NCBI GenBank assembly: GCA_011033025.1
Contig: WFMF01000007.1
Location: 682,001 to 746,000, forward strand
Direction: 5' to 3'
DNA length: 64,000 bases
From: Beroe forskalii
Taxonomy: Eukaryota > Ctenophora > Nuda > Beroida > Beroidae
Positions 9,720-63,339 of the stretch are shown piece after piece (the stretch's first letter is position 1; every line of letters starts with the position of its first letter). The translations under genes were made by a program, and so were the position numbers. The notes below the pieces were generated by a model. The model searched no databases and had not been told where the DNA came from. It worked only from the letters and a program-made list of their open reading frames with translations.

Positions 9720-10900
9720 AGACGTCAAGGTACCTTTTCGATAACAATGATTTTTCTCCAGTCAACCTTGTGAAATTGGTACCTTTTTGAGAACAATAAT
9801 TTTCTTGAGAGGACCTTGTGATAATCAATAGGTACCTTTTTAGAAGCAATCTTTTTCTCTAGTGTAACTTTTGAAATAGGTACCTCTTTTTTGAAAACAA
9901 TCATTTTCTCTAGTGTTACTCATGAAATAAGTTCCTTTTTGAAAACAATCACTTTCTCCGGTGTAATTTCTGAAAAAGTACTTTTTTGGAAACAATGATT
10001 TTTTCAAGTGGAACTTCAAACCTGTGCAACCGGTACCTTTTTGAAAACAATTTTATAGATAGTGTAACTTGTGAAATAGGTACCTTTTCGATAACAATGA
10101 TTTTCTCCACTGAACCTTGTGAAATGGGTACCTTTTTGAGAACAATAATTTTCTTGAGAGGACCTTGTGAAATAGGTACCTTTTTAGAAACAATCACTTT
10201 CTATGTAGCTTTTGAAATAGGTACCTTTTTGAAAACTATCAATTTCTCCAGTGTAACTTGTGAAATAGTTACTTTTTTGAAAACGACCTTTTTCTAGATA
10301 GAGTAATTTATGAAATAGGTACCTTTTCGATAGAAATGATTTTCTCCAGTGATCCTTGTGAAATGGGTACCTGTTTGAGAACAATAATTTTCTTGAGAGG
10401 ACCTCGTGAAATTTAATATTAGGTACCTTTTTAGTGTAACTTTTGAAATAGGTACCTCTTTTTTGAAAGCAATGGTTTTCTCTAGTGAAACTTGTGAAAT
10501 AGGTACCTTTTTGAAAACAATCACTCTCTGTCTCTCTCCAGTGCAACTTGAGAAATAGGTACCTTTATTGAAAACACTGATTTTCAAGTGGAACTTGTGG
10601 AATTGTTGCCTTTTTGAAAACAAACATTTTCTTCATAATGTAACTTCTAAAATAGGTACCTTTTTGAAAACAATGATTTTCACTATTGTAACTTGTTCAA
10701 TAAGTTCCTTTTTTAAAACAATCAGGAACCTATCTCTCATTTTCTCTTTTTGATATCCTTTTTGACAATCATTTGCTCTAGTGTAACTTTTGAATAGATA
10801 CATTTTTGTGAACAGTGAAATGAGAATCTTTTTGAAACCAATTTTTCTAGTTTACCTTGCTAAATGGACACTATTTTGAAATCAACTACAGCAATAAACA
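9720..10900. repeat. GGTACC-centred degenerate tandem repeat, right block of element A
   Basis: About 20 imperfect units of about 45-57 bases with the core AGGTACCTTTTTGAAAACAA and a CTCCAGTGTAACTTGTGAAA part. On the complementary strand the core reads TTCAAAAAGGTACCTATTTC, close to TTCAGAAAGGTACCCATAAT of element B, so the two satellites appear related. Confidence 0.85.
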
Positions 10901-26560: not shown

Positions 26561-26675
26561 GTTGATTGGCCGGGGCAGCTGGACGCTGATCTGTCTGCCG
26601 TACTCATCCACATTCAGGTAGCCCCCTTCAAACGCAGCGTCCACAGCGGAGATGTGGTAGTTGCAGATAGCAAAC
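26561..26675 (-). CDS. Semaphorin exon 6 (SAVC-like block), begins in the 32-bp array
   Basis: It encodes FAICNYHISAVDAAFEGGYL and continues NVDEYGRQISVQLPRPIN, then donor ATCAAC/GTGAGT. The part AIC.Y.IS.VDAAFEGGY matches the semaphorin signature S-A-[VI]-C-x-[YF]-x-[MIL]-x-D-I-x-x-[AV]-F-x-G-x-Y. The acceptor would be TTTCCACAG in the last array unit. Joined to exon 5, the codon AG+G restores R-F-A-I-C without loss. Confidence 0.75.
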
Positions 26676-29600
26676 CTGTGGAAATGTGGTAGTTGCAGAT
26701 AGCAAACCTGTGGAAATGTGGTAGTTGCAGATAGCAAACCTGTGGAAATGTGGTAGTTGCAGATAGCAAACCTGTGGAGATGTGGTAGTTGCAGATAGCA
26801 AACCTGTGGAAATGTGGTAGTTGCAGATAGCAAACCTGTGGAAATGTGGTAGTTGCAAATAGCAAACCTGTGGAAATGTGGTAGTTGCAAATAGCAAACC
26901 TGTGGAAATGTGGTAGTTGCAGATAGCAAACCTGTGGAAATGTGGTAGTTGCAGATAGCAAACCTGTGGAAATGTGGTAGTTGCAGATAGCAAACCTGTG
27001 GAAATGTGGTAGTTGCAGATAGCAAAACCTGTGGAAATGTGGTAGTTGCAGATAGCAAACCTGTGGAAATGTGGTAGTTGCAGATAGCAAACCTGTGGAA
27101 ATGTGGTAGTTGCAGATAGCAAACCTGTGGAAATGTGGTAGTTGCAGATAGCAAACCTGTGGAAATGTGGTAGTTGCAGATAGCAAACCTGTGGAAATGT
27201 GGTAGTTGCAGATAGCAAACCTGTGGAAATGTGGTAGTTGCAGATAGCAAACCTGTGGAAATGTGGTAGTTGCAGATAGCAAACCTGTGGAAATGTGGTA
27301 GTTGCAGATAGCAAACCTGTGGAAATGTGGTAGTTGCAGATAGCAAACCTGTGGAAATGTGGTAGTTGCAGATAGCAAACCTGTGGAAATGTGGTAGTTG
27401 CAGATAGCAAACCTGTGGAAATGTGGTAGTTGCAGATAGCAAACCTGTGTAGTTGCAGATAGCAAACCTGTGGAAATGTGGTAGTTGCAGATAGCAAACC
27501 TGTGGAAATGTGGTAGTTGCAGATAGCAAACCTGTGGAAATGTGGTAGTTGCAGATAGCAAACCTGTGGAAATGTGGTAGTTGCAGATAGCAAACCTGTG
27601 GAAATGTGGTAGTTGCAGATAGCAAACCTGTGGAAATGTGGTAGTTGCAGATAGCAAACCTGTGGAAATGTGGTAGTTGCAGATAGCAAACCTGTGGAAA
27701 TGTGGTAGTTGCAGATAGCAAACCTGTGGAAATGTGGTAGTTGCAGATAGCAAACCTGTGGAAATGTGGTAGTTGCAGATAGCAAACCTGTGGAAATGTG
27801 GTAGTTGCAGATAGCAAACCTGTGGAAATGTGGTAGTTGCAGATAGCAAACCTGTGGAAATGTGGTAGTTGCAGATAGCAAACCTGTGGAAATGTGGTAG
27901 TTGCAGATAGCAAACCTGTGGAAATGTGGTAGTTGCAGATAGCAAACCTGTGGAAATGTGGTAGTTGCAGATAGCAAACCTGTGGAAATGTGGTAGTTGC
28001 AGATAGCAAACCTGTGGAAATGTGGTAGTTGCAGATAGCAAACCTGTGGAAATGTGGTAGTTGCAGATAGCAAACCTGTGGAAATGTGGTAGTTGCAGAT
28101 AGCAAACCTGTGGAAATGTGGTAGTTGCAGATAGCAAACCTGTGGAAATGTGGTAGTTGCAGATAGCAAACCTGTGGAAATGTGGTAGTTGCAGATAGCA
28201 AACCTGTGGAAATGTGGTAGTTGCAGATAGCAAACCTGTGGAAATGTGGTAGTTGCAGATAGCAAACCTGTGGAAATGTGGTAGTTGCAGATAGCAAACC
28301 TGTGGAAATGTGGTAGTTGCAGATAGCAAACCTGTGGAAATGTGGTAGTTGCAGATAGCAAACCTGTGGAAATGTGGTAGTTGCAGATAGCAAACCTGTG
28401 GAAATGTGGTAGTTGCAGATAGCAAACCTGTGGAAATGTGGTAGTTGCAGATAGCAAACCTGTGGAAATGTGGTAGTTGCAGATAGCAAACCTGTGGAAA
28501 TGTGGTAGTTGCAGATAGCAAACCTGTGGAAATGTGGTAGTTGCAGATAGCAAACCTGTGGAAATGTGGTAGTTGCAGATAGCAAACCTGTGGAAATGTG
28601 GTAGTTGCAGATAGCAAACCTGTGGAAATGTGGTAGTTGCAGATAGCAAACCTGTGGAAATGTGGTAGTTGCAGATAGCAAACCTGTGGAAATGTGGTAG
28701 TTGCAGATAGCAAACCTGTGGAAATGGTAGTTGCAGATAGCAAACCTGTGGAAATGTGGTAGTTGCAGATAGCAAACCTGTGGAAATGTGGTAGTTGCAG
28801 ATAGCAAACCTGTGGAAATGTGGTAGTTGCAGATAGCAAACCTGTGGAAATGTGGTAGTTGCAGATAGCAAACCTGTGGAAATGTGGTAGTTGCAGATAG
28901 CAAACCTGTGGAAATGTGGTAGTTGCAGATAGCAAACCTGTGGAAATGTGGTAGTTGCAGATAGCAAACCTGTGGAAATGTGGTAGTTGCAGATAGCAAA
29001 CCTGTGGAAATGTGGTAGTTGCAGATAGCAAACCTGTGGAAATGTGGTAGTTGCAGATAGCAAACCTGTGGAAATGTGGTAGTTGCAGATAGCAAACCTG
29101 TGGAAATGTGGTAGTTGCAGATAGCAAACCTGTGGAAATGTGGTAGTTGCAGATAGCAAACCTGTGGAAATGTGGTAGTTGCAGATAGCAAACCTGTGGA
29201 AATGTGGTAGTTGCAGATAGCAAACCTGTGGAAATGTGGTAGTTGCAGATAGCAAACCTGTGGAAATGTGGTAGTTGCAGATAGCAAACCTGTGGAAATG
29301 TGGTAGTTGCAGATAGCAAACCTGTGGAAATGTGGTAGTTGCAGATAGCAAACCTGTGGAAATGTGGTAGTTGCAGATAGCAAACCTGTGGAAATGTGGT
29401 AGTTGCAGATAGCAAACCTGTGGAAATGTGGTAGTTGCAGATAGCAAACCTGTGGAAATGTGGTAGTTGCAGATAGCAAACCTGTGGAAATGTGGTAGTT
29501 GCAGATAGCAAACCTGTGGAAATGTGGTAGTTGCAGATAGCAAACCTGTGGAAATGTGGTAGTTGCAGATAGCAAACCTGTTGAAATGTGGTAGTTGCAG

Positions 29601-32600
29601 ATAGCAAACCTGTGGAAATCGCTGTTTCAAATGATTATCTTGAAGTTGAGGGTTTGTCGGGTGGTCAGAGACATGCCACACGTCATGTAGGCTTTGGTAA
29701 AGGTCAGGAACAACTTGTTTATCTGCGTCTAGGAGGGGAGTTATTGAGGAGGGGGTTAGTGGGGAGGGGGTTAAAGGGGGTCTAGAAGGGGGTTAGTTGA
29801 GAGGGGTCTAGAGGGAGGTTAGTTGAGAGGGGTCTAGAGGGAGGTTAGTTGAGAGGGGTCTAGAGGGAGGTTAGTTGAGAGGGGTCTAGAGGGAGGTTAG
29901 TTGAGAGGGGTCTAGAGGGAGGTTAGTTGAGAGGGGTCTAGAGGGAGGTTAGTTGAGGGTCTAGAGGGAGGTTAGTTGAGAGGGGTCTAGAGGAGGTTAG
30001 TTGAGAGGGGTCTAGAGGGAAGTTAGTTGAGAGGGGTCTAGAGGGAGGTTAGTTGAGAGTGGTCTAGAGGAGGTTAGTTGAGAGAGGGGTCTAGAGGGAG
30101 GTTAGTTGAGAGGGGTCTAGAGGAGGTTAGTTGAGAGGGGTCTAGAGGGAGGTTAGTTGAGAGGGGTCTAGAGGGAGGTTAGTTGAGAGGGGTCTAGAGG
30201 GAGGTTAGTTGAGAGGGGTCTAGAGGGAGGTTAGTTGAGAGGGGGTCTAGAGGGAGGTTAGTTGAGAGGGGTCTAGAGGGAGGTTAGTTGAGAGGGGTCT
30301 AGAGGGAGGTTAGTTGAGAGGGGTCTAGAGGGAGGTTAGTTGAGAGGGGTCTAGAGGGAGGTTAGTTGAGAGGGGTCTAGAGGGAGGTTAGTTGAGAGGG
30401 GTCTAGAGGGAGGCGGTTGAGAGGGGTCTAGAGGAGGTTAGCTGAGAGGGTCTAGAGGGAGGTTAGTTGAGAGGGGTCTAGAGGAGGTTAGTTGAGAGGG
30501 GTCTAGAGGGAGGTTAGTTGAGAGGGGTCTAGAGGGAGGTTAGTTGAGAGGGGTCTAGAGGGAGGTTAGTTGAGAGGGGTTAAGGGGGAGGGGGTTAAAG
30601 GGGTCTAGAGGGGGAGTTCAGTGGTAATGAGAATGTGTGGAAGGGGTTAATGAGGTAAGGGGACAGGCTTTGCATTGTTGGAGAGGATTTGAGAAAATGT
30701 ATGAATAAATTACTTCACTTCATTGCACTGCTGCTGGTATCAAACACGGCATGGGACTTAACTACAATATATATCATTTCCTATGTTCAACATATTCATT
30801 TCATAAGGGGATAAACATTCAAAAGAAGCAGTTAGCAGTGAGACACACTCCGACACACACACACTCCGACACACAAACACACATACACACACACACACTC
30901 CGACACACAAACACACTCCCACACAGAGCAATGGTTTGAGAGTTACTTAGTGTGTAATGCTATGATAAACACGGAGGAACCCCTAATTGGCAGTTAAATG
31001 GTTCCTGAAGTAGTCTGTTAGTCACTGCCACACAGCCCTGGACCTACCTGATCGTCTTCATAGCCAGGGTCAGACTTTACAGACCCTGGCCACAGCCGCC
31101 TTATACCCCTCGCCTGTCGCCTCGCGCATCACGAAGTACACGTAGTCACCGTACTCGAAGGAGTGCAGGAATTCGGCACTGCTCAGCCACTGGTTACTTG
31201 ACGTGACTGAGGGGAATTTTTGAAATTAGAGGCTTAGCTCAAACCTGAAGGATGAGTTTGAATTTTAAGTTAATTTTCGGCAAATTCGTAAGAAGTTCGC
31301 GTGCGTTGTTTAATTACAGGCGAACTCACGATTTGAAAATTCCATATCTTCGGAGCTAGGAACAATATTAAAACGTACCTGCACCCTCCGAACTGATCTG
31401 AAGTCTGGTGTTGTCGAACTTCGTTATGGACGACACCTGCCGGTCCTCATTGACTCCAGCAAATATCTGGTCCGAGGTTTGGAGGTACGAGCTGCTCCAA
31501 GTGGGGGACTGGGAACAAAGCCTGGGCACATCACTCCTTCCTATCTTCTGTAGCAGTGTTAGGTCTGAAACAGAGCGAGAGTGAGGGGGAGTAAATGGGG
31601 AGTAAATGGGGAGTGAGTGGGAGCAAATGGGGAGTGAGGCGGTGAGTGGGAGCAAATGCGGGGAGTCTAGTCAATGAAGCTTGAGTGAGAAGATTTACAG
31701 TACCTCAGAAAGGACCCTTCTCCCACCCTGGCTGTTACAGTGAACTGAACCACTCACCCTGACACCAGTCACCCTGACACCAGTCACCCTGACACCAGTC
31801 ACCCTGACACCAGTGAGTGAGGGGGAGTTAATGCGAGGGGTAGGTGAGTGCAAATGGGGGAGTGAGGGGGAGCGAGTGAGGCTTTGGGGAGTGAGTGGGA
31901 GCAAATGGGGAGTGAGGGGGTGGGTGGGAGCAAATGGGGAGTGAGGGGTTGGGAGCAAATGGGAGCGTGAGGGGTGGTGGGAGCAAATGGGAGTGATTGG
32001 GAGCAAAATGGGGACGAGTCTTGGGAGCAAATGGGGCTCAGGGGAGCAAATGGGGAGTGAGTGGGAGCAAATGGGGAGTGAGGAACCTTTGGGAGCAAAT
32101 GGAGTGTGAGGGGTGGGAGCAAATGGGGAGTGAGTGGGAGCAAATGGGGAGTGAGTGGGAGCAAATGGGGAGTGTCCAGGAAGCAAATGGGGAGTGAGTG
32201 GGGAGCAAATGGGGAGTGAGGGGTGAAGTGGGAGCAAATGGGGGAGTGAGGGGGTGGGAGCAAATGGGGAGTGAGTTGGGAGCAAATGGGGTGGAGTGGG
32301 AGCAAATGGGAGTGGGGAACGTGAGGGAAGTCTAGTCAATGAAGCTTGAGAGGGAGTGGGGGGAGTGAGTGGGGAGTGAGTGCAAAGCCGGAAGTGGAGT
32401 GGGAGTGAGGGGGAGCAAATGGGGAGTGAGGGGTGGGAGCAAATGGGAGTGAGGGGTTGGGAGCAAATGGGGAGTGAGGGGTGAGTTGGAGCAAATGGGG
32501 AGTGAGGGGGTTGGGAGCAAATGGGGAGTTGAGGGGTGACTGGGTCCAAATGGGAGCTTAGGGAGCAAATGGGGAGTGAGGGGGTGACTGGGAGCAAATG

Positions 32601-35600
32601 GGGAGTGAGGGGTGAGTGGGAGCAAATGGGGGTAGTGGGAGCAAATGGGGAGCGAGGGGGTGGGAGCAAATGGGGAGTGAGTGGGAGCAAATGGGGAGTG
32701 AGTGGGAGCAAATGGGGAGTGGGGGGAGTGAGGGGAAGTCTAGTCAATGAAGGTTGAGAGGGAGTGGGGGAGTGAGTGGGGGGAGTGAGTGCAAATGGGG
32801 GAGTGAGTGGGAGTGAGGGGGAGCAAATGGGGAGTGAGGGGGTGGGAGCAAATGGGGAGTGAGGGGTTGGGAGCAAATGGGGAGTGAGGGGGTGAGTTGG
32901 AGCAAATGGGGAGTGAGGGGTTGGGAGCAAATGGGGAGTGAGGGGGTGACTGGGAGCAAATGGGGAGTGAGTGGGAGCAAATGGGGGGTGACTGGGAGCA
33001 AATGGGGAGTGAGGAGGAGCAAATGCGGGGGGTCTAGTCAATGAAGCTCGAGTGAGAAGATTTACAATACCTAAGAAAGGACCCTTCTCCCACCCTGGCT
33101 GTTACAGTGAACTGCACACCACTCACCCTGATATCACTTCACCCTGACACCAGTCACTCTGGCACCATTCACCCTGACACCATTCACCCTGACACCACCA
33201 TGGGACTACACCCTGACACCACTTCCCCCCTAGTTGACAAAAGGCCCCTGAGAAAAATCTTAGGGGGCCTTCACCCTACCTAAAATTTTCTCAAAATTGA
33301 GCATAGAATGAAGGTCAAAATTTAGTTCATTAGACAGAAATTTTCCTGAAATTCACCCTTCTTTAGAGTAAAATCAATGAATAAAACATTATTTTAGTAC
33401 TATTTTTAAGCAAAATAGTAAAAATTATGGCTATGAGAAATGAAAATTTGCCTATGTAAATTTTGGCCCACTTCAGTTTTCAAAAGGCCCCCTAGAAAAA
33501 TCTAGGGGGCCTTACTCACCCTAACACCAAAAATCTTGACAATGGCATGGACACCACTCACCCTGACACCATTCACCCTGACACCATTCACCCTGACACC
33601 ACTCACCCTGACACCACTCACCCTGACACCAGTCACCCTGACACCACTCACCCTGACACCACTCACCCTGACACCACTTCACCCTGACACCACTCACCCT
33701 GACACCACTCACCCTGACACCACTCACCCTGACACCACTTCACCCTGACACCACTCACCCTGACACCACTCACCCTGACACCACTCACCCTGACACCACT
33801 CACCCTGACACCACTCACCCTGAAACCAGTCACCCTGACACCATTCACCCTGACACCACTTCACCCTAACACCACTCACCCTGACACCATTCACCCTGAC
33901 ACCACTTCACCCTGACACCAGTCACCCTGACACCACTCACCCTGACACCAGTCACCCTGACACCACTCACCCTGACACCACTTCACCCTGACACCACTCA
34001 CCCTGACACCAGTCACCCTGACACCACTTCACCCTGACACCACTCACCCTGACACCACTTCACCCTGACACCAGTCACCCTGACACCACTCACCCTGACA
34101 CCACTCACCCTGACACTACTCACCCTGAAACCACTCACCATGACACCACTTCACCCTGACACCACTCACCATGACACCACCTCACCCTGACACCAGTCAC
34201 CCTGGCTGTTACAGTGAACTGCACCACTCACCAGGTTCGAGCACTATGGCTTTAGGGTCGCCGTGGTTGGTGCCACACGCCACTAGGTTGCTATTTCCCA
34301 TGTTCAGGATCCGAGTCACAAAGTTACCACACTCCCACTTCGGGTGACAGTTCATGTTGTCAGTGCCACCGTTCCAGTTTAGCTGGAGGGAGAGATAGTG
34401 TTAGGGTGGTATTAATGGAGGTGATTCAGGAATCAGGATTCTGCTACCAAGTTTAAAATATACACTGTTAAAGTGATCACTGGTCAAGTGACAATTAAGA
34501 GATTCAACTGGAAGCCGTCATTTCATGCAACTTATCATAATTTTAAAAACATTGAACATATAATAGAACAATGTAAGGCGCCCGTAACGTTCGTCGGTCG
34601 ATAGAATGGAATTGGTTGATCGATCAACTCCATTTGAACAAAATATGATTTACTGGTCCATAATGACTAGTTCAATCGTGTTTAAATGAGCAATATTTAG
34701 TTTTTTCCCTACGAGCTCGAAGATTTTCTACTTAAAACACATCAGTCGATCAAATTAAGTTGATCTATCGACCAATTCCATTTGATCGACCGACGAACAG
34801 GCGCCTAAGAACGTAAGAACATATCATATTCCTTGTGTTACAGCATTCGTCACCAATGGAAAAGGTTGATAATCAAATTATAATGAAAGATAAGTCTAAC
34901 ATGTAATCAGATTCAGTTCTTTACAATCTGAAAACTTCCTTACCTTAGTACACTTAAGAACGGCGTCACTTAATTAGTGCGGTTTGGAAAAAACCGCACT
35001 AATTAAGTGTATAGTATTTAAGTGCGCATAAAATTAAGTTTATGCTAATTAAGTGAACTATTCTGTGAATTTTGCGTTTTTCCGATTTTGTTTTTTTCGG
35101 ACATGAATTAATGAATAACTATACTACCGGATTTAAATGTATCTAGGTACTTGATAAGTTTATAGTGACCAAAACAATAAGTACAAATACAAAACGAGCT
35201 GTATATCGTGACCGTACTAGCTAAAACTTAAATAGTTAATAAAGAAAGAAATTGTAATGGATACTTAAACTTATTACTATAGAAAATTTGATTTATTTTT
35301 ATAATTGCAAAATTTTCGATCGTTGGTCCTATGAAAGTATGAATATGATGTCCTGCAATCAAGAGGAAAATTTCAAATTTATTCAAATTTCCACATCGTT
35401 TTCTATCTCATAAAAACCGCACTAATAAAGTGCTCCGATCTTAAAGTGCGCGCAAATTTCGTGATGCTGTTCTTAAGTGTACTAAGATGTTAAAATGGTA
35501 ACCCTATCCCTAACCCCTGTTATATTCAGACATTTCCAGCAGTTCCTACAATTCACACAGCAATCGTAATACATTAATTCATCGCAATAAATTGTACTAC

Positions 35601-55689: not shown

Positions 55690-58600
55690 CATACCTAATG
55701 CCCAAAGTGGTTGGTGTAACTGGTGGTTTAGAAAGGTACCCATAATTGGTTGGTGTAATTGGTGGCGTAACTGGTGGCTCAGAAAGGTGCCCATAATTGG
55801 TTGGTGTAACTGGTTGTTCGAAAAGGTACCCATAATTGGTTCGGCGTAACTGGTGGTTCAGAACAGTACCCATAATTGGTTGGTGTAACTGGTGGTTCAG
55901 AAAGGTACCCATAATTGGTTGGTGTAACTGGTCGTTCAGAAAGGTACCCATAATTGGTTAGTGGAACTGGTGGTTCAGAAAGGTACCCATAATTGTTTAG
56001 TGTAACTGGTGGTTTAGAAAAGTACCCATGATTGCTTGGTGTAACTGGTTGTTCGAAAAGGTACCCATAATTGGTTGGTGAAACTGGTGGTTCAGAAAGG
56101 TACCCATAATTGGTTAGTGTAACTGGTGATTAGGAAAGGTACCCATAATTGGTTGGTGTAACTGGTGGTTCAGAAAGGTACCCATAATTGGTAACTGGTG
56201 TAAATGGTTGTTGAAAGGTACCATAAATTGGTTGGTGTAACTGGTGGTTCAAAAAGGTACCCATAATTGTTTGGTGTAACTGGTGGTTCAAAAAGTTACC
56301 CATAATTGGTTGGTGTAACTGGTGGTTCAGAAAAGTACCCATAATTGGTAACTGGTGTAAATGGTTATTGAAAGGTACCCATAATTGCTTAGTGTAACTG
56401 GTGGTTCAGAAGGGTACCCATAATTGGTTGGTGTAACTGGTGGTTCAAAAAGGTACCCATAATTGGTTGGTGTAACAGGTGGTTCAGAAAAGTACCCAAA
56501 ATTGGTAACTGGTGTAACTGGTTATTGAAAGGTACCAATAATTGCTTAGTGTAACTGGTGGATCAAAAAGGCACCCATAATTGGTTGGTGTAACTGGTGG
56601 TTCAAAAAGGTACCCATAATTGGTTGGTGTAACAGGTGGTTCAGAAAGGTACCCATAATTGGTAACTGGTGTAACTGGTTATTGAAAGGTACCCATAATT
56701 GGTTGGTGTAACTGGTGGATCAAAAAGGTACCCATAATTGGTTGGTGTAACTGGTGGTTGAAAACGGTACCCATAATTGGTTGGTGTAACTGGTGGTTCA
56801 GAAAAGTACCCATAATTGGTTGGTGTAACTAGTGGTTCAGAAAGGTACCCATAATTGGTTGGTGTAACTGGTCGTTCAGAAAGGTACCCATAATTGGTTA
56901 GTGGAACTGGTGGTTCAGAAAGGTACTCATAATTGGTTGGCGTAACTGGTTGTTCAGAAAGGTACCCATAATTGCTTGGTGTAACTGGTTGTTCGAAAAG
57001 GTACCCATAATTGGTTGGTGAAACTGGTGGTTCAGAAAGGTACCCATAATTGGTTAGTGTAACTGGTGAAGAGGAAAGGTACCCATAATTGGTTGGTGTA
57101 ACTGGTGGTTCAGAAAGGTACCCATAATTGGTAACTGGTGTAACTGGTTATTGAAAGGTACCCATAATTGGTTGGTGTAACTGGTGGTTCAAAAAGGTAC
57201 CCATAATTGTTTGGTGTAACTGGTGGTTCAAAAGGTACCCATAATTGGTTGGTGTAACTGGTGGTTCAGAAAAGTACCCATAATTGGTAACTAGTGTAAC
57301 TGGTTATTGAAAGGTACCCATAATTGCTTAGTGTAACTGGTGGTTCAGAAGGGTACCCATAATTAGTTGGTGTAACTGGTGGTTCAAAAAGGTACCCATA
57401 ATTGGTTGGTGTAACAGGTGGTTCAGAAAAGTACCCAAAATTGGTAACTGGTAACTGGTTAGAAAGGTACCCATAATTGGTTGGTGTAACTGGTGATTGA
57501 AAGGTACCCATAATTGTTTGTGTAACTGGTGGTTCAAAAAGGTACCCATAATTGGTTGGTGTAACAGGTGGTTCAGAAAGGTACCCATAATTGGTAACTG
57601 GTGTAACTGGTTGGTTGAAAGGTACCCATAATTGGTTGGTGTAACTGGTGGATCAAAAAGATACCCATAATTGGTTGGTGTAACTGGTGGTTGAAAAAGG
57701 TACCCATAATTGGTTGGTGTAACTGGTGGTTCAGAAAAGTACCCATAATTGGTTGGTGTAACTAGTGGTTTAGAAAGGTACCCATAATTGTTTAGTGTAA
57801 CTGGTGGTTCAAAAGGGTACCCATAATTTGTTAGTGTAACTGGTGGTTCAGAAACGTCTAGGTACCCATAATTAGTTGGTGTAACTGGTGGCTCAGAAAG
57901 GTACCCATAATTGGTGAGTGTAACTGGTGGTTCAGAAAGGTACCCATAATTGGTTGGTGTAACTGGTGGTTCAGAAATGTACCCATAATTGGTTGGTGTA
58001 ACTAGTGGTTCAAAAAGGTACCCATAATTGTTTAGTGTAACTGGTGGTTCAAAAGGGTACCCATGATTTGTTAGTGTAACTGGTGGTTCAGAAAGGTACC
58101 AATAATTGGTTAGTGGAACTGGTGGTTCAGAAAGGTACCCATAATTGTTTAGTGTAACTGGTGGTTTAGAAAAGTACCCATGATTGCCTGGTGTAACTGG
58201 TTGTTCGAAAAGGTACCCATAATTGGTTGGTGAAACTGGTGGTTCAGAAAGGTACCCATAATTGGTTAGTGTAACTGGTGGTTCAAAATGTTACCCATAA
58301 TTGGTTGGTGTAACTGGTGGTTCAGAAAAGTACCCATAATTGGTAACTGGTGTAACTGGTTATTGAAAGGTACCCATAATTGCTTAGTGAAACTGGTGGT
58401 TCAGAAGGGTACCCATAATTGGTTGGTGTAACTGGTGGTTCAAAAAGGTACCCATAATTGGTTGGTGTAACAGGTGGTTCGAAAAGTACCCAAAATTGGT
58501 GGTGTAACTGGTTATTGTACAAGGTACCCATAATTGCTTAGTGTAACTGGTGGATCAAAAAAGGCACCCATAATTGGTTGGTGTAACTGGTGGTTCAAAA

Positions 58601-61600
58601 AGGTACCCATAATTGGTTGGTGTAACTGGTGGTTCAGAAAGGTACCCATAATTGGTTGTGTAACTGGTTGGTTGAAAGGTACCCATAATTGGTTGGTGTA
58701 ACTGGTGGATCAAAAAGGTACCCATAATTGGTTGGTGTAACTGGTGGTTTAGAAAACGGTACCCATAATTGGTTGGTGTAACTGGTGGTTCGAAAAGTAC
58801 CCATAATTGGTTGGTGTAACTAGTGGTTCAGAAAGGTACCCATAATTGGTTGGTGTAACTGGTCGTTCAGAAAGGTACCCATAATTGGTTAGTGGAACTG
58901 GTGGTTCAGAAAGGTACCCATAATTGGTTAGTGTAACTGGTGGTTCAGAAAAGTACCCATGATTGCTTGGTGTAACTGGTTGTTCGAAAGGTACCCCTAA
59001 TTGGTTGGTGAAACTGGTGGTTCAGAAAGGTACCCATAATTGGTTAGTGTAACTGGTGGCGGAAAGGTACCCATAATTGGTTGGTGTAACTGGTGGTTCA
59101 GAAAGGTACCCATAATTGGTAACTGGTGTAACTGGTGGTTCAGAAAGGTACCCATAATTGGTTGGTGTAACTGGTGGTTCAGAAAAGTACCCATGATTGC
59201 TTGGTGTAACTGGTTGTTCGAAAAGGTACCCATAATTGGTTGGTGAAACTGGTGGTTCAGAAAGGTACCCATAATTGGTTAGTGTAACTGGTGGTGGAAA
59301 AGGTACCCATAATTGGTTGGTGTAACCGGTGGTTCAGAAAGGTACCCATAATTGGTAACTGGTGTAACTGGTTATTGAAAGGTACTCATAATTGGTTGGT
59401 GTAACAGGTGGTTCAAAATGGTACCCATAATTTGTTGGTGTAACTGGTGGTTCAAAAAGTTACCCATAATTGGTTGGTGTAACTGGTGGTTCAGAAAAGT
59501 ACCCATAATTGGTAACTGGTGTAACTGGTTATTGAAAGGTACCCATAATTGCTTAGTGTAACTGGTGGTTCAGAAGGGTACCCATAATTAGTTGGTGTAA
59601 CTGGTGGTTCAAAAAGGTACCCATAATTGGTTGGTGTAACAGGTGGTTCAGAAAAGTCCCCAAAATTGGTAACTGGTGTAACTGGTTAGTGAAAGGTACC
59701 CATAATTGCTTAGTGTAACTGGTGGATCAAAAAGGCACCCATAAAGCCATAATTGGTTGGTGTAACTGGTGGTTCAAAAAGGTACCCATAATTGGTTGGT
59801 GTAACAGGTGGTTCAGAAAGGTACCCATAATTGGTAACTGGTGTAACTGGTTATTGAAAGGTACCCATAATTGGTTGGTGTAACTGGTGGATCAAAAAGA
59901 TACCCATAATTGGTTGGTGTAACTGGTGGTTGAAAAAGGTACCCATAATTGGTTGGTGTAACTGGTGGTTCAGAAAAGTACCCATAATTGGTTGGTGTAA
60001 CTAGTGGTTCAGAAAGGTACCCATAAGTAATTGTTTAGTGTAACTGGTGGTTCAAAAGGGTACCCATAATTTGTTAGTGTAACTGGTGGTTCAGAAACGT
60101 CTAGGTACCCATAATTAGTTGGTGTAACTGGTGGCTCAGAAAGGTACCCATAATTGGTGAGTTTAACTGGTGGTTCAGAAAGGTACCCATAATTGGTTGG
60201 TGTAACTGGTGGTTCAGAAATGTACCCATAATTGGTTGGTGTAACTAGTGGTTCAAAAGGTACCCATAATTGTTTAGTGTAACTGGTGGTTCAAAAGGGT
60301 ACCCATGATTTGTTAGTGTAACTGGTGGTTCAGAAAGGTACCAATAATTGGTTAGTGGAACTGGTGGTTCAGAAAAGGTACCCATAATTGTTTGGTGTAA
60401 CTGGTGGTTTAGAAAGGTACCCATGATTGGTTTGGTGTAACTGGTTGTTCGAAAAGGTACCCATAATTGGTTGGTGAAACTGGTGGTTCAGAAAGGTACC
60501 CATAATTGGTTAGTGTAACTGGTGGTTCAAAATGTTACCCATAATTGGTTGGTGTAACTGGTGGTTCAGAAAAGTACCCATAATTGGTATGGTGTAACTG
60601 GTTATTGAAAGGTACCCATAATTGCTTAGTGTAACTGGTGGTTCAGAAGGGTACCCATAATTGGTTGGTGTAACTGGTGGTTCAAAAGGTACCCATAATT
60701 GGTTGGTGTAACAGGTGGTTCAGAAAAGTACCCAAAATTGGTAACTGGTGTAACTGGTTATTGTAAGGTACCCATAATTGCTTAGTGTAACTGGTGGATC
60801 AAAAAGGCACCCATAATTGGTTGGTGTAACTGGTGGTTCAAAAAGGTACCCATAATTGGTTGGTGTAACAGGTGGTTCAGAAAGGTACCCATAATTGGTA
60901 ACTGGTGTAACTGGTTGTTAAGAAAGGTACCCATAATTGGTTGGTGTAACTGGTGGATCAAAAAGGTACCCATAATTGGTTGGTGTAACTGGTGGTTGAA
61001 AACGGTACCCATAATTGGTTGGTGTAACTGGTGGTTCAGAAAAGTACCCATAATTGGTTGGTGTAACTAGTGGTTCAGAAAGGTACCCATAATTGGTTGG
61101 TGTAACTGGTCGTTCAGAAAGGTACCCATAATTGGTTAGTGGAACTGGTGGTTCAGAAAGGTACCCATAATTGGTTAGTGTAACTGGTGGTTCAGAAAAG
61201 TACCCATGATTGCTTGGTGTAACTGGTTGTTCGAAAAGGTACCCATAATTGGTTGGCGAAACTGGTGGTTCAGAAAGGTACCCATAATTGGTTAGTGTAA
61301 CTGGTGGTTCAAAAGGGTACCCATAATTTGTTAGTGTAACTGGTGGTTCAGAAAGGTACCCATAATTGCAACTGGTGTAACTGGTTATTGAAAGGTACCC
61401 ATAATTGGTTGGTGTTACTGGTGGTTCGAAAAGGTACCTATAATTGTTTGGTGTAACTGGTGGTTCAAAAGGTACCCATAATTGGTTGGTGTAACTGGTG
61501 GTTCAGAAAGGTACCCATAATTGGTTAGTGTAACTGGTGGTTCAGAAAGGTACCCATAATTGCTTAGTGTAACTGGTGGTTCAGAAGGGTACCCATAATT

Positions 61601-62510
61601 GGTTGGTGTAACTGGTGGTTCAAAAAGGTACCCATAATTGGTTGGTGTAACAGGTGGTTCAGAAAAGTACCCAAAATTGGTAACTGGTGTAACTGGTTAT
61701 TGAAAGGTACCCATAATTGCTTAGTGTAACTGGTGGATCAAAAAGGCACCCATAATTGGTTGGTGTAACATGTGATTCAAAAAGGTACCCATAATTGGTA
61801 ACTGTTGTAACTGGTTATTGAAAGGTACCCATAATTGGTTGGTGTAACTGGTGGATCAAAAAGGTACCCATAATTGGTTGGTGTAACTGGTGGTTGAAAA
61901 AGGTACCCATAATTGGTTGGTTTAACTGGTGGTTCAGAAAAGTACCCATAATTGGTTGGTGTAACTAGTGGTTCAGAAAGGTACCCATAATTGTTTAGTG
62001 TAACTGGTGGTTCAAAAGGGTACCCATAATTTGTTAGTGTAACTGGTGGTTCAGAAAGGTCTAGGTACCCATAATTAGTTGGTGTAACTGGTGGCTCAGA
62101 AAGGTACCCATAATTGGTGAGTGTAACTGGTGGTTCAGAAAAGTACCCATAATTGGTTGGTGTAACTGGTGGTTCAGAAATGTACCAATAATTGGTTGGT
62201 GTAACTAGTGGTTCAGAAAGGTACCCATAATTGTTTAGTGTAACTGGTGGTTCAAAAGGGTACCCATAATTTGTTAGTGTAACTGGTGGTTCAGAAAGGT
62301 ACCAATAATTGGTTAGTGTAACTGGTGGTTCAGAAAGGTCTAGGTACCCATAATTAGTTGGTGTAACTGGTGGCTCAGAAAGGTACCCATAATTGGCGAG
62401 TGTAACTGGTGGTTCAGAAAGGTACCCATAATTGATTAGTGTATCTGGTGGCTCAGAAAGGTACCCATAATTGGTTAGCATAAGTGGTGGTTCAGAAAGG
62501 TACCCATAAT
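55690..62510. repeat. 39-40-bp GGTACC satellite of element B, about 170 copies
   Basis: Core unit GGTACCCATAATTGGTTGGT followed by GTAACTGGTGGTTCAGAAA. Variant types recur: TTGCTTAGTG, TTGTTTAGTG, TTGGTAACTGGTGTAACTGG, GGTCGTTCAG, GTTATTGAAA and CGTCTAGGTACCC. The variants recur in the same order over blocks of about 2.0-2.25 kb, so a higher-order repeat exists. Frames of up to 234 codons (Y-G-Y-L-S-E-P-P-V-T type) are array translations. Confidence 0.95.
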
Positions 62511-63339
62511 TACACTCAGTTTTTTTTATAAGAAACTGTCTATAAGAAACTTAGCCTAGGATTTCCGAAAATTTAAGAAACTTAGCCTAGAATTTCGGAA
62601 AAATTAAGAAACTTCACTGATTTACAATTAAGAAATTAAGAAACTTCTAGCCTAGAATTTTGAAATTTGTGTATAAAATCCTATTGCAACTGAAATTCTT
62701 TTAACATGATACGTCTGGTTTCTGGGGGCTGCTCCCCAGACCCCAATTTTTTGATTGTGAACATTCCGAAACTAATCTAGTACTTCTATTGAACTTCTAT
62801 TACAGTATTACACTGGATATGTGATAATGGATCATAATATAAAATAGAAATTTAGAAAATGAATCTTTCATGATTTTTCGGTTTAAAGTAACATGCCAGA
62901 TACTAAAGCACAAAACAGAAATTTAGAAATTGTTGTTGCGACAGGACACTATTACAGTTCCATATCTATTCCAAAAGTTCCAAGCATTATAGGATTTAGA
63001 TATTATTTAGATATTATCTAAATTTCAAAATTTTTTGGAAGAACATTTCATGAAGATCCCTGAACATTATTGTATACAGCTGCACAAATCTTTTAAGATA
63101 GGTACATGCTTGAAAGTGTATAATTTAACTGAAAATATCAGAAGGTTCGATTCTAATCCTCAACTACAGTCTACACAGTAGGTTCCTATGTTGGAAATTT
63201 CGTAGACATTTTTCGTACGGTATGTCGGTATGTAGAATTAAGAAACCGATTAAGAAACTTTTAGGCTCAAAATCGTGAAAAAATAAGAAACTTGTAGCCT
63301 AGGATTTCAATAAGTTTCTTATAAAAAAAACTGAGTGTA
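62511..63339. mobile_element. 825-bp TA-flanked MITE nested in element B
   Basis: Ends CACTCAGTTTTTTTTATA at 62513 and its perfect complement ending 63337 (TIR of at least 24 bases). TA flanks at 62511-62512 and 63338-63339. Inside, repeated AAGAAACTTAGCCTAGGATT words occur near both ends. GGTACC satellite lies on both sides. Tc1/mariner-type by duplication; no transposase frame. Confidence 0.85.

Follow-up and report, generated by a model that had tools for sequence, protein, structure and literature searches.

A 92-unit tandem array beside a semaphorin exon of Beroe forskalii: probably a mirage in a decaying gene

What does an array of nearly identical units, each bearing an acceptor-like AG followed by GT, represent when it lies between two exons of a semaphorin gene, and does it mark the birth of an intron? 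The question is raised by a stretch of 64,000 nucleotides from the ctenophore Beroe forskalii (assembly GCA_011033025.1, contig WFMF01000007.1, positions 682,001 to 746,000 of the forward strand), hereafter called the window, in which a 32-nt minisatellite separates exons E4 and E5 of a gene encoded on the minus strand. The original prediction interpreted this array as a newborn intron that had grown from a duplicated AGGT-containing exon segment. Our analysis favors a different reading, to which we assign a probability of roughly 70%: the array is a 92-unit mirage, that is, a minisatellite that would have arisen through tandem duplication of DNA spanning a 3' splice junction or lying immediately next to it, and its host is a probable semaphorin pseudogene. 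A recurring type of intron-lengthening repeat thus appears to be a better reading of the locus than a newborn intron.

Structure and probable origin of the array

The features on which the argument rests are as follows (positions are those of the window).

26676..29613, minus strand: the array, 92 tandem units, the commonest being ACAGGTTTGCTATCTGCAACTACCACATTTCC, plus ACAG before the last, exon-joined copy; 93 CAG/GT sites.
29614..29619, minus strand: ATTTCC in the 5' flank of the array, a possible slippage seed together with the 3' hexamer.
26648..26653, minus strand: ATCTCC of the last copy, which lies a single 32-nt step away from the ATTTCC before it and has a putative role in seeding.
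29610..29722, minus strand: exon E4 (exon 5 of the original prediction), INKLFLTFTKAYMTCGMSLTTRQTLNFKIII, then TGA at 29629-29627.
26561..26675, minus strand: exon E5, FAICNYHISAVDAAFEGGYLNVDEYGRQISVQLPRPIN, with donor AAC/GTGAGT; the last copy of the array belongs to its start.

Tandem Repeats Finder placed the minisatellite in the window at 26648-29619 (period 32, 93.2 copies, 98% matches). Its dissection yielded 92 full units and 93 ACAGG sites on the minus strand, all 93 with AGGT, i.e., one AGGT per ACAGG site, so that a duplicated AGGT-containing segment of the Rogers type is indeed present. The original prediction of about 92 copies of a 32-bp unit with ACAGGT in each therefore stands, and it placed the cuts, at 29610 and 26675, correctly. 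Almost all units (89) are 32 nt long, the other three measuring 30, 23, and 33 nt; 85 of the 92 are identical 32-mers, the deviating ones being units 1, 28, 68, 82, 86, 87, and 89. So few deviating units suggest recent growth or homogenisation, in agreement with the earlier statement that the copies are too similar to be old. The distance from the first to the last ACAGG is 2934 nt, which is divisible by 3, and the array is stop-free in all three minus-strand frames. Pyrimidines precede CAG/GT in each unit. The array is bordered by GCGATTTCC/ACAGG on the 5' side and by CACATCTCC/GCTG on the 3' side. ATTTCC and ATCTCC flank a single copy and are spaced by one unit, the ATCTCC form occurring also in unit 89 (26807); the presence of near-identical hexamers one unit apart fits slippage.

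The probable seed is the 32-nt step between ATTTCC and ATCTCC, which flank CCACAG/GTTTGC at the start of E5. Slippage or unequal exchange could have extended the array from there upstream to 92 units. As the most downstream copy would stay joined to the intact exon, added copies would lengthen the intron side alone; here, as at the other loci described below, the genuine junction is the copy adjoining the intact exon, and the remaining copies are on the intron side. AGGT would be present owing to a chance GT after an acceptor-like AG, and not through the splitting of an uninterrupted exon; by simple arithmetic, about 12% of random 32-nt units contain AGGT. Where AG is followed by GT, the use of a wrong acceptor might, conjecturally, be corrected by re-splicing. 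In a minisatellite-rich genome, selection would remove exon-internal duplications, while those straddling a junction may be tolerated because one intact junction remains beside the exon. Other junctions in the genome, acceptors and some donors, would be subject to the same process. In the presumed course of events, the final part of E4, the donor behind it, and the bulk of the old intron would also have disappeared from the host gene, and E3 would have become frameshifted.

Minisatellite DNA makes up 31% of the window and 0.6-26% of 13 sampled loci of 9.9 kb. The window also contains a 39-nt minisatellite of 172 copies with GGTACC in the unit (55756-62511) and a 48-nt array that likewise bears GGTACC (9728-10393).

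Copied splice junctions at other loci

Arrays spanning an acceptor were found at several other semaphorin loci of the genome. C270 (L035, 2858-4436) has 31 copies of a 50-nt unit, CCATTTCAG/ACTGGCTGAACAG, without AGGT; C525 has 10.5 copies of a 42-nt unit, CTTCCTCCAG/ATATCGGG; and C780 (L042, 6432-7241) has 15 copies of a 54-nt unit, ATTTCAG/GTTGTGTCTCGC, before the exon VVSRIARVCKDDTG. The near-identical C242 (L021) has five copies of the 54-nt array versus 15 in C780. Among myosin and kinase genes, a strict test, in which a 21-nt segment straddling the junction had to be found again on the intron side, up to four mismatches being allowed, detected copies of the own junction at the acceptors of C225 (34 nt, 8 copies), C549 (30 nt, 3 copies), and C858 (61 nt, 6 copies), while two junction copies each were recognized by eye at the acceptors of C212 and C262 (L069, L078). 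Upstream copies were thus present in 5 of 16 hand-picked myosin and kinase exons (three by the strict test, two by eye). Donor-side copies, sought in eight of those exons, were found at C549 and C212 by the strict test and at C262 (L083) by eye. The C549 kinase exon (L072, L085) carries arrays on both sides, the donor array having the form AGCAACCAGGAGACATTAG/GTGAGA.

Inspection of the sequences showed the last copy continuing into the real exon at C270, C525, C780, C225, C549, and C858, and the units at these six loci span the intron end and the exon start, as is characteristic of mirages. Seven junctions have at least three acceptor copies. GT follows AG in three of them (the window, C780, and C858); the other four have CAG/AC, CAG/AT, CAG/TT, and CAG/GG. 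AGGT is therefore not required for such arrays, and its repetition by itself is an insufficient sign of a newborn intron.

The frequency of copied junctions was estimated by the strict test. The 16 non-semaphorin exons had been chosen by hand among 78 matches to the myosin head and 150 to kinases, and about 350 nt upstream of each was included; the 24 semaphorin acceptors were those recognizable in the sampled loci, including the window's own and two near-identical pairs, C780 and C242, and C802 and C188. Copies were found at 9 of 49 acceptors (6/24 semaphorin, 3/16 myosin and kinase, and 0/9 further myosin and kinase ones in the sampled loci) and at 2 of 33 donors (0/18 semaphorin, 2/8 myosin and kinase, and 0/7 further myosin and kinase ones, three of these seven having a searchable stretch of 100 nt or less), and at none of 82 reversed-window controls (0/66 plus 0/16). 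Two myosin stretches in which the open frame seemed to span an intron showed no boundary array and were counted among the negatives. The acceptor and donor rates did not differ significantly (9/40 versus 2/26 in the first set, Fisher P 0.18). The sample is small and hand-picked, with search lengths from 22 nt to 3.2 kb, so these figures give only an indication of the genome-wide rate.

A recursive (ratchet) splice site consists of a pyrimidine tract and AG directly before a usable donor. AG/GT is present in each unit of the window's array, with GTTTGC deviating at +3 and +4 from most of the donors listed. Tentatively, and with considerable doubt, one may suppose that in an animal outside amphioxus tandem duplication across splice junctions is a standing genome-wide process, which affects perhaps at least a tenth of junctions and is an important source of intron length, and that AG/GT ladders such as the window's 92-unit array could splice recursively and, after a deletion like that beside E4, supply both sites of a replacement intron.

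The host gene, the age of its intron, and alternative readings

When stitched together, E1-E5 match solved semaphorins, the best match being Semaphorin-2A (E 5.8e-11), which bears out the identity assigned to the gene in the original prediction; against the Pfam Sema model the stitched exons scored 13.5 bits, under the cut-off of 23.7 bits. The remaining features of the gene are the following.

34232..34382, minus strand: exon E1, open; donor CTG/GTGAGT.
31379..31564, minus strand: exon E2, open; 79% identity over 63 aa to P0001 (ENA contig).
31048..31206, minus strand: exon E3, reading to TSSNQWLSSAEFLHSFEYGDYVYFVMREATGEGYKAAVARVCKV, then TGA at 31072, with SDPGYEDDQ in another frame up to the donor CAG/GTAGGT.
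29621..29622, minus strand: alternative older acceptor, TTGAAACAG/CGATTTCC, phase 2, seven codons before the Cys (eight in three paralogues).

Splice sites are good and the frame is open in E1, E2, and E5. E3 reads ARVCKV and is then closed by the TGA at 31072, the expected SDPGYEDDQ continuing frame-shifted to a good donor; this lesion of the preceding exon was missed in the original prediction. The frame of E4, if joined to E5, meets the TGA at 29629-29627, five codons before the joined codon and upstream of the first AGGT. No GT occurs between FKIII of E4 and the array, and, compared with the paralogue C270, where E4 runs on through GGAFYRSGTLYAVFSGQ to a phase-2 donor and the next intron ends in AG/GAATTTG, about 17 codons and the donor are missing. 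A tblastn search of the window for the missing part (GAYF..LYTVFSG) gave weak matches only, none of them between E4 and E5. The lesions of E3 and E4 are separate and lie about 1.4 kb apart. Moreover, E5 reads FAIC, with Phe three residues before Cys, where Ser stands in all 12 paralogous loci. Judging from these lesions as assembled, the host semaphorin is probably a decaying paralogue or pseudogene. As E4 appears to be without its final part and donor, most of the old intron seems to be gone, and E3 is frameshifted, the array is unlikely to be a working new intron, and functional splicing is probably absent.

The age of the intron was assessed from paralogues. There are 16 Sema-domain matches in the genome, 12 of which cover the part with the array junction. 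In three of these loci (C270, C525, and C1102) a phase-2 intron ends in AG/G eight codons before the Cys, i.e., about five codons from the array junction, and the exon after it ends where E5 does; E5 is of the same exon type, entered in phase 2 and left in phase 0 at 34-35 codons past the Cys. The intron before E5 therefore looks old in its subfamily, whichever acceptor it used. If CCACAG/G is the acceptor, three codons of E5 precede the Cys, and if it is TTGAAACAG/C at 29622/29621, seven do; the latter acceptor fits the paralogue exon length better, whereas CCACAG/G has the better pyrimidine tract. With CCACAG/G, the unit consists of an intron end and an exon start, as in a mirage; with 29622/29621 it does not. 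The array behaves as a mirage would and is most likely one, putative intron sequence within the unit being the remaining defining feature. As regards orthologues, whose comparison had been proposed as a way to find an uninterrupted exon, the search yielded P0001 only, which covers E2, and the E4-E5 query found no match; among the 12 paralogous loci, an intron lies nearby in three, and the other nine are uninterrupted there.

Several observations weigh against the interpretation of the array as a mirage in a decaying gene. First, 9 of the 12 paralogous loci are uninterrupted at the array junction. Second, if the old acceptor was 29622/29621, the unit would be wholly exonic and the TGA at 29629 would lie in a remnant of the intron. 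Third, the array directly abuts the exon without an intervening donor, unlike the other arrays. Fourth, no copies were found at the 18 semaphorin donors, 9 further acceptors, and 7 further donors, and the nine positive acceptors include that of the window, the near-identical C780 and C242, and L038, which has a single extra copy. Finally, the lesions of E3 and E4 could be errors of sequencing or assembly.

The last point leads to the strongest alternative, that the gene is alive, its lesions are assembly errors, and the array is a mirage of the ordinary sort within an old intron, the assembly having dropped the donor of that intron together with part of the neighboring exon. This is consistent with the state of E1, E2, and E5 and with the 79% identity of E2 to that of a relative, and a mirage is reported to have been misassembled in the amphioxus draft (PMC3087553). 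However, two separate lesions would have to be explained in this way, as well as the Phe in place of the Ser of all 12 paralogous loci, and we consider this reading unlikely.

A newborn intron of the Rogers type, in which 2934 nt descended from a duplicated AGGT-bearing exonic segment would be removed by splicing from the mRNA of a working semaphorin, is less probable still. It would account for the CAG/GT with preceding pyrimidines in each unit, and the unit would be exonic if 29622/29621 was the old acceptor; G at +5 of GTTTGC agrees with all 26 donors listed, and there are precedents in vertebrate ATP2A1 and in 24-bp repeats of fission yeast (PMC4974935). GTTTGC is nevertheless a poor donor, as T occurs at +3 in 3 and at +4 in 1 of the 26. 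Splicing was said to restore R-F-A-I-C in frame: the AG/G codon is indeed restored at the junction, but the TGA at 29629-29627 lies upstream in the same frame. This stop, the frameshift of E3, the absence of the E4 end and donor that C270 keeps, and the phase-2 introns near this position in three paralogues ruled out the newborn intron as the leading reading, and AGGT proved dispensable in other arrays. Of the proposed route, tandem duplication at an exon edge is seen, while the birth of an intron from it is unsupported.

As to the array itself, its copy number could in principle have been invented or greatly inflated in assembly, as its extreme homogeneity might suggest; this is very improbable in view of the distinct marker units scattered along it and of similar, more diverged arrays at other genes. 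The least credible possibility, that the array is translated and adds roughly 978 residues of repeat to the propeller as an insertion, is compatible with the divisible length and the three open frames, but a 32-nt unit is stop-free by chance in about one case in five (arithmetic), the C780 unit contains TAA, and the TGA stops in E3 and E4, upstream of the array, led to its rejection.

Two further arrays are located within the introns of the gene.

33550..34204, minus strand: 15-nt array, 43 copies, just inside the E1 donor, with GTGAGT in many units.
29777..30612, minus strand: 26-nt pyrimidine-rich array, 32 copies, just upstream of the E4 acceptor.

No exon sequence was found in either, and the donor and acceptor tests, respectively, gave 0 copies. 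A segment near the E1 donor, at the 33550-34204 array, repeats again near 33140 and 31765.

No second close copy of the E1-E5 locus was found in the genome, further matches being paralogues with 34-57% identity. On the same strand, some 29 kb farther downstream, an exon with semaphorin-domain sequence (C802, L038, 7513-7635) has a second acceptor copy just upstream, and its near-identical counterpart in C188 lacks this copy. C188 is 87-95% identical to C802 at 672-682 kb and resembles it until about position 330 of the window (81% at 67-332); beyond 67-332, two short matches of about 79% were found near 44.3 kb and otherwise none. E1-E5 were not found in C188 (L039/L062), which points to a large haplotype difference or a segmental duplication.

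Known systems and significance

Mirages have been described in amphioxus, in Adh3 and in the globins BflGb6 and BflGb9 (PMC3087553); PMC3902484 adds a PGBD5 mirage and cites Adh and TnC. In these accounts AG/GT occurs in many, though not all, units, and the authors propose intron gain (PMC3087553, PMC3902484). Copy number varies there, with 6 versus 3 copies in two haplotypes of BflGb6 (PMC3087553), as it does in C780 and C242 (15 versus 5). The amphioxus arrays, however, have 2-7 units where these are numbered, versus 92 here, and the present host is a probably broken semaphorin. A let-7 search scored 46 bits on both strands at a single place, short of the gathering score, and a mir-124 search, in which 60 of 10601 candidates were scored, yielded no match; the PDB matches of semaphorin and myosin weigh only weakly against amphioxus.

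The Rogers model of intron gain by tandem duplication is presented in PMC4974935 with the cases of ATP2A1 and SPOG_01682/SOCG_00815, in which, as in the window, a segment with AGGT at the edge of an exon is repeated; in those cases a spliced intron is reported, whereas here there is a stop in the joined frame and an intron nearby in three paralogues. In potato RdRp (PMC4974935) the duplicate, as here, crosses the intron-exon boundary and comprises the intron 3' end and the exon 5' end, but there the segment was duplicated once and a new intron is reported, compared with about 92 units and at most a putative intron here. Novel Drosophila introns have also been attributed to tandem duplication (PMC2891723).

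So far, mirages have drawn little attention and have passed for a peculiarity of amphioxus. Should they prove frequent in another animal, they would provide a natural series of repeated junctions, some with AGGT and some lacking it, that ranges from 2 to about 92 copies and includes donors as well as acceptors. Tandem arrays are reportedly a source of human introns too, as the title of a 2007 paper by Zhuo et al. has it. Such a series, if true, would permit direct tests of the way in which a spliceosome selects one of several identical sites, of the lengthening of introns, and of whether such repeats give rise to new introns.
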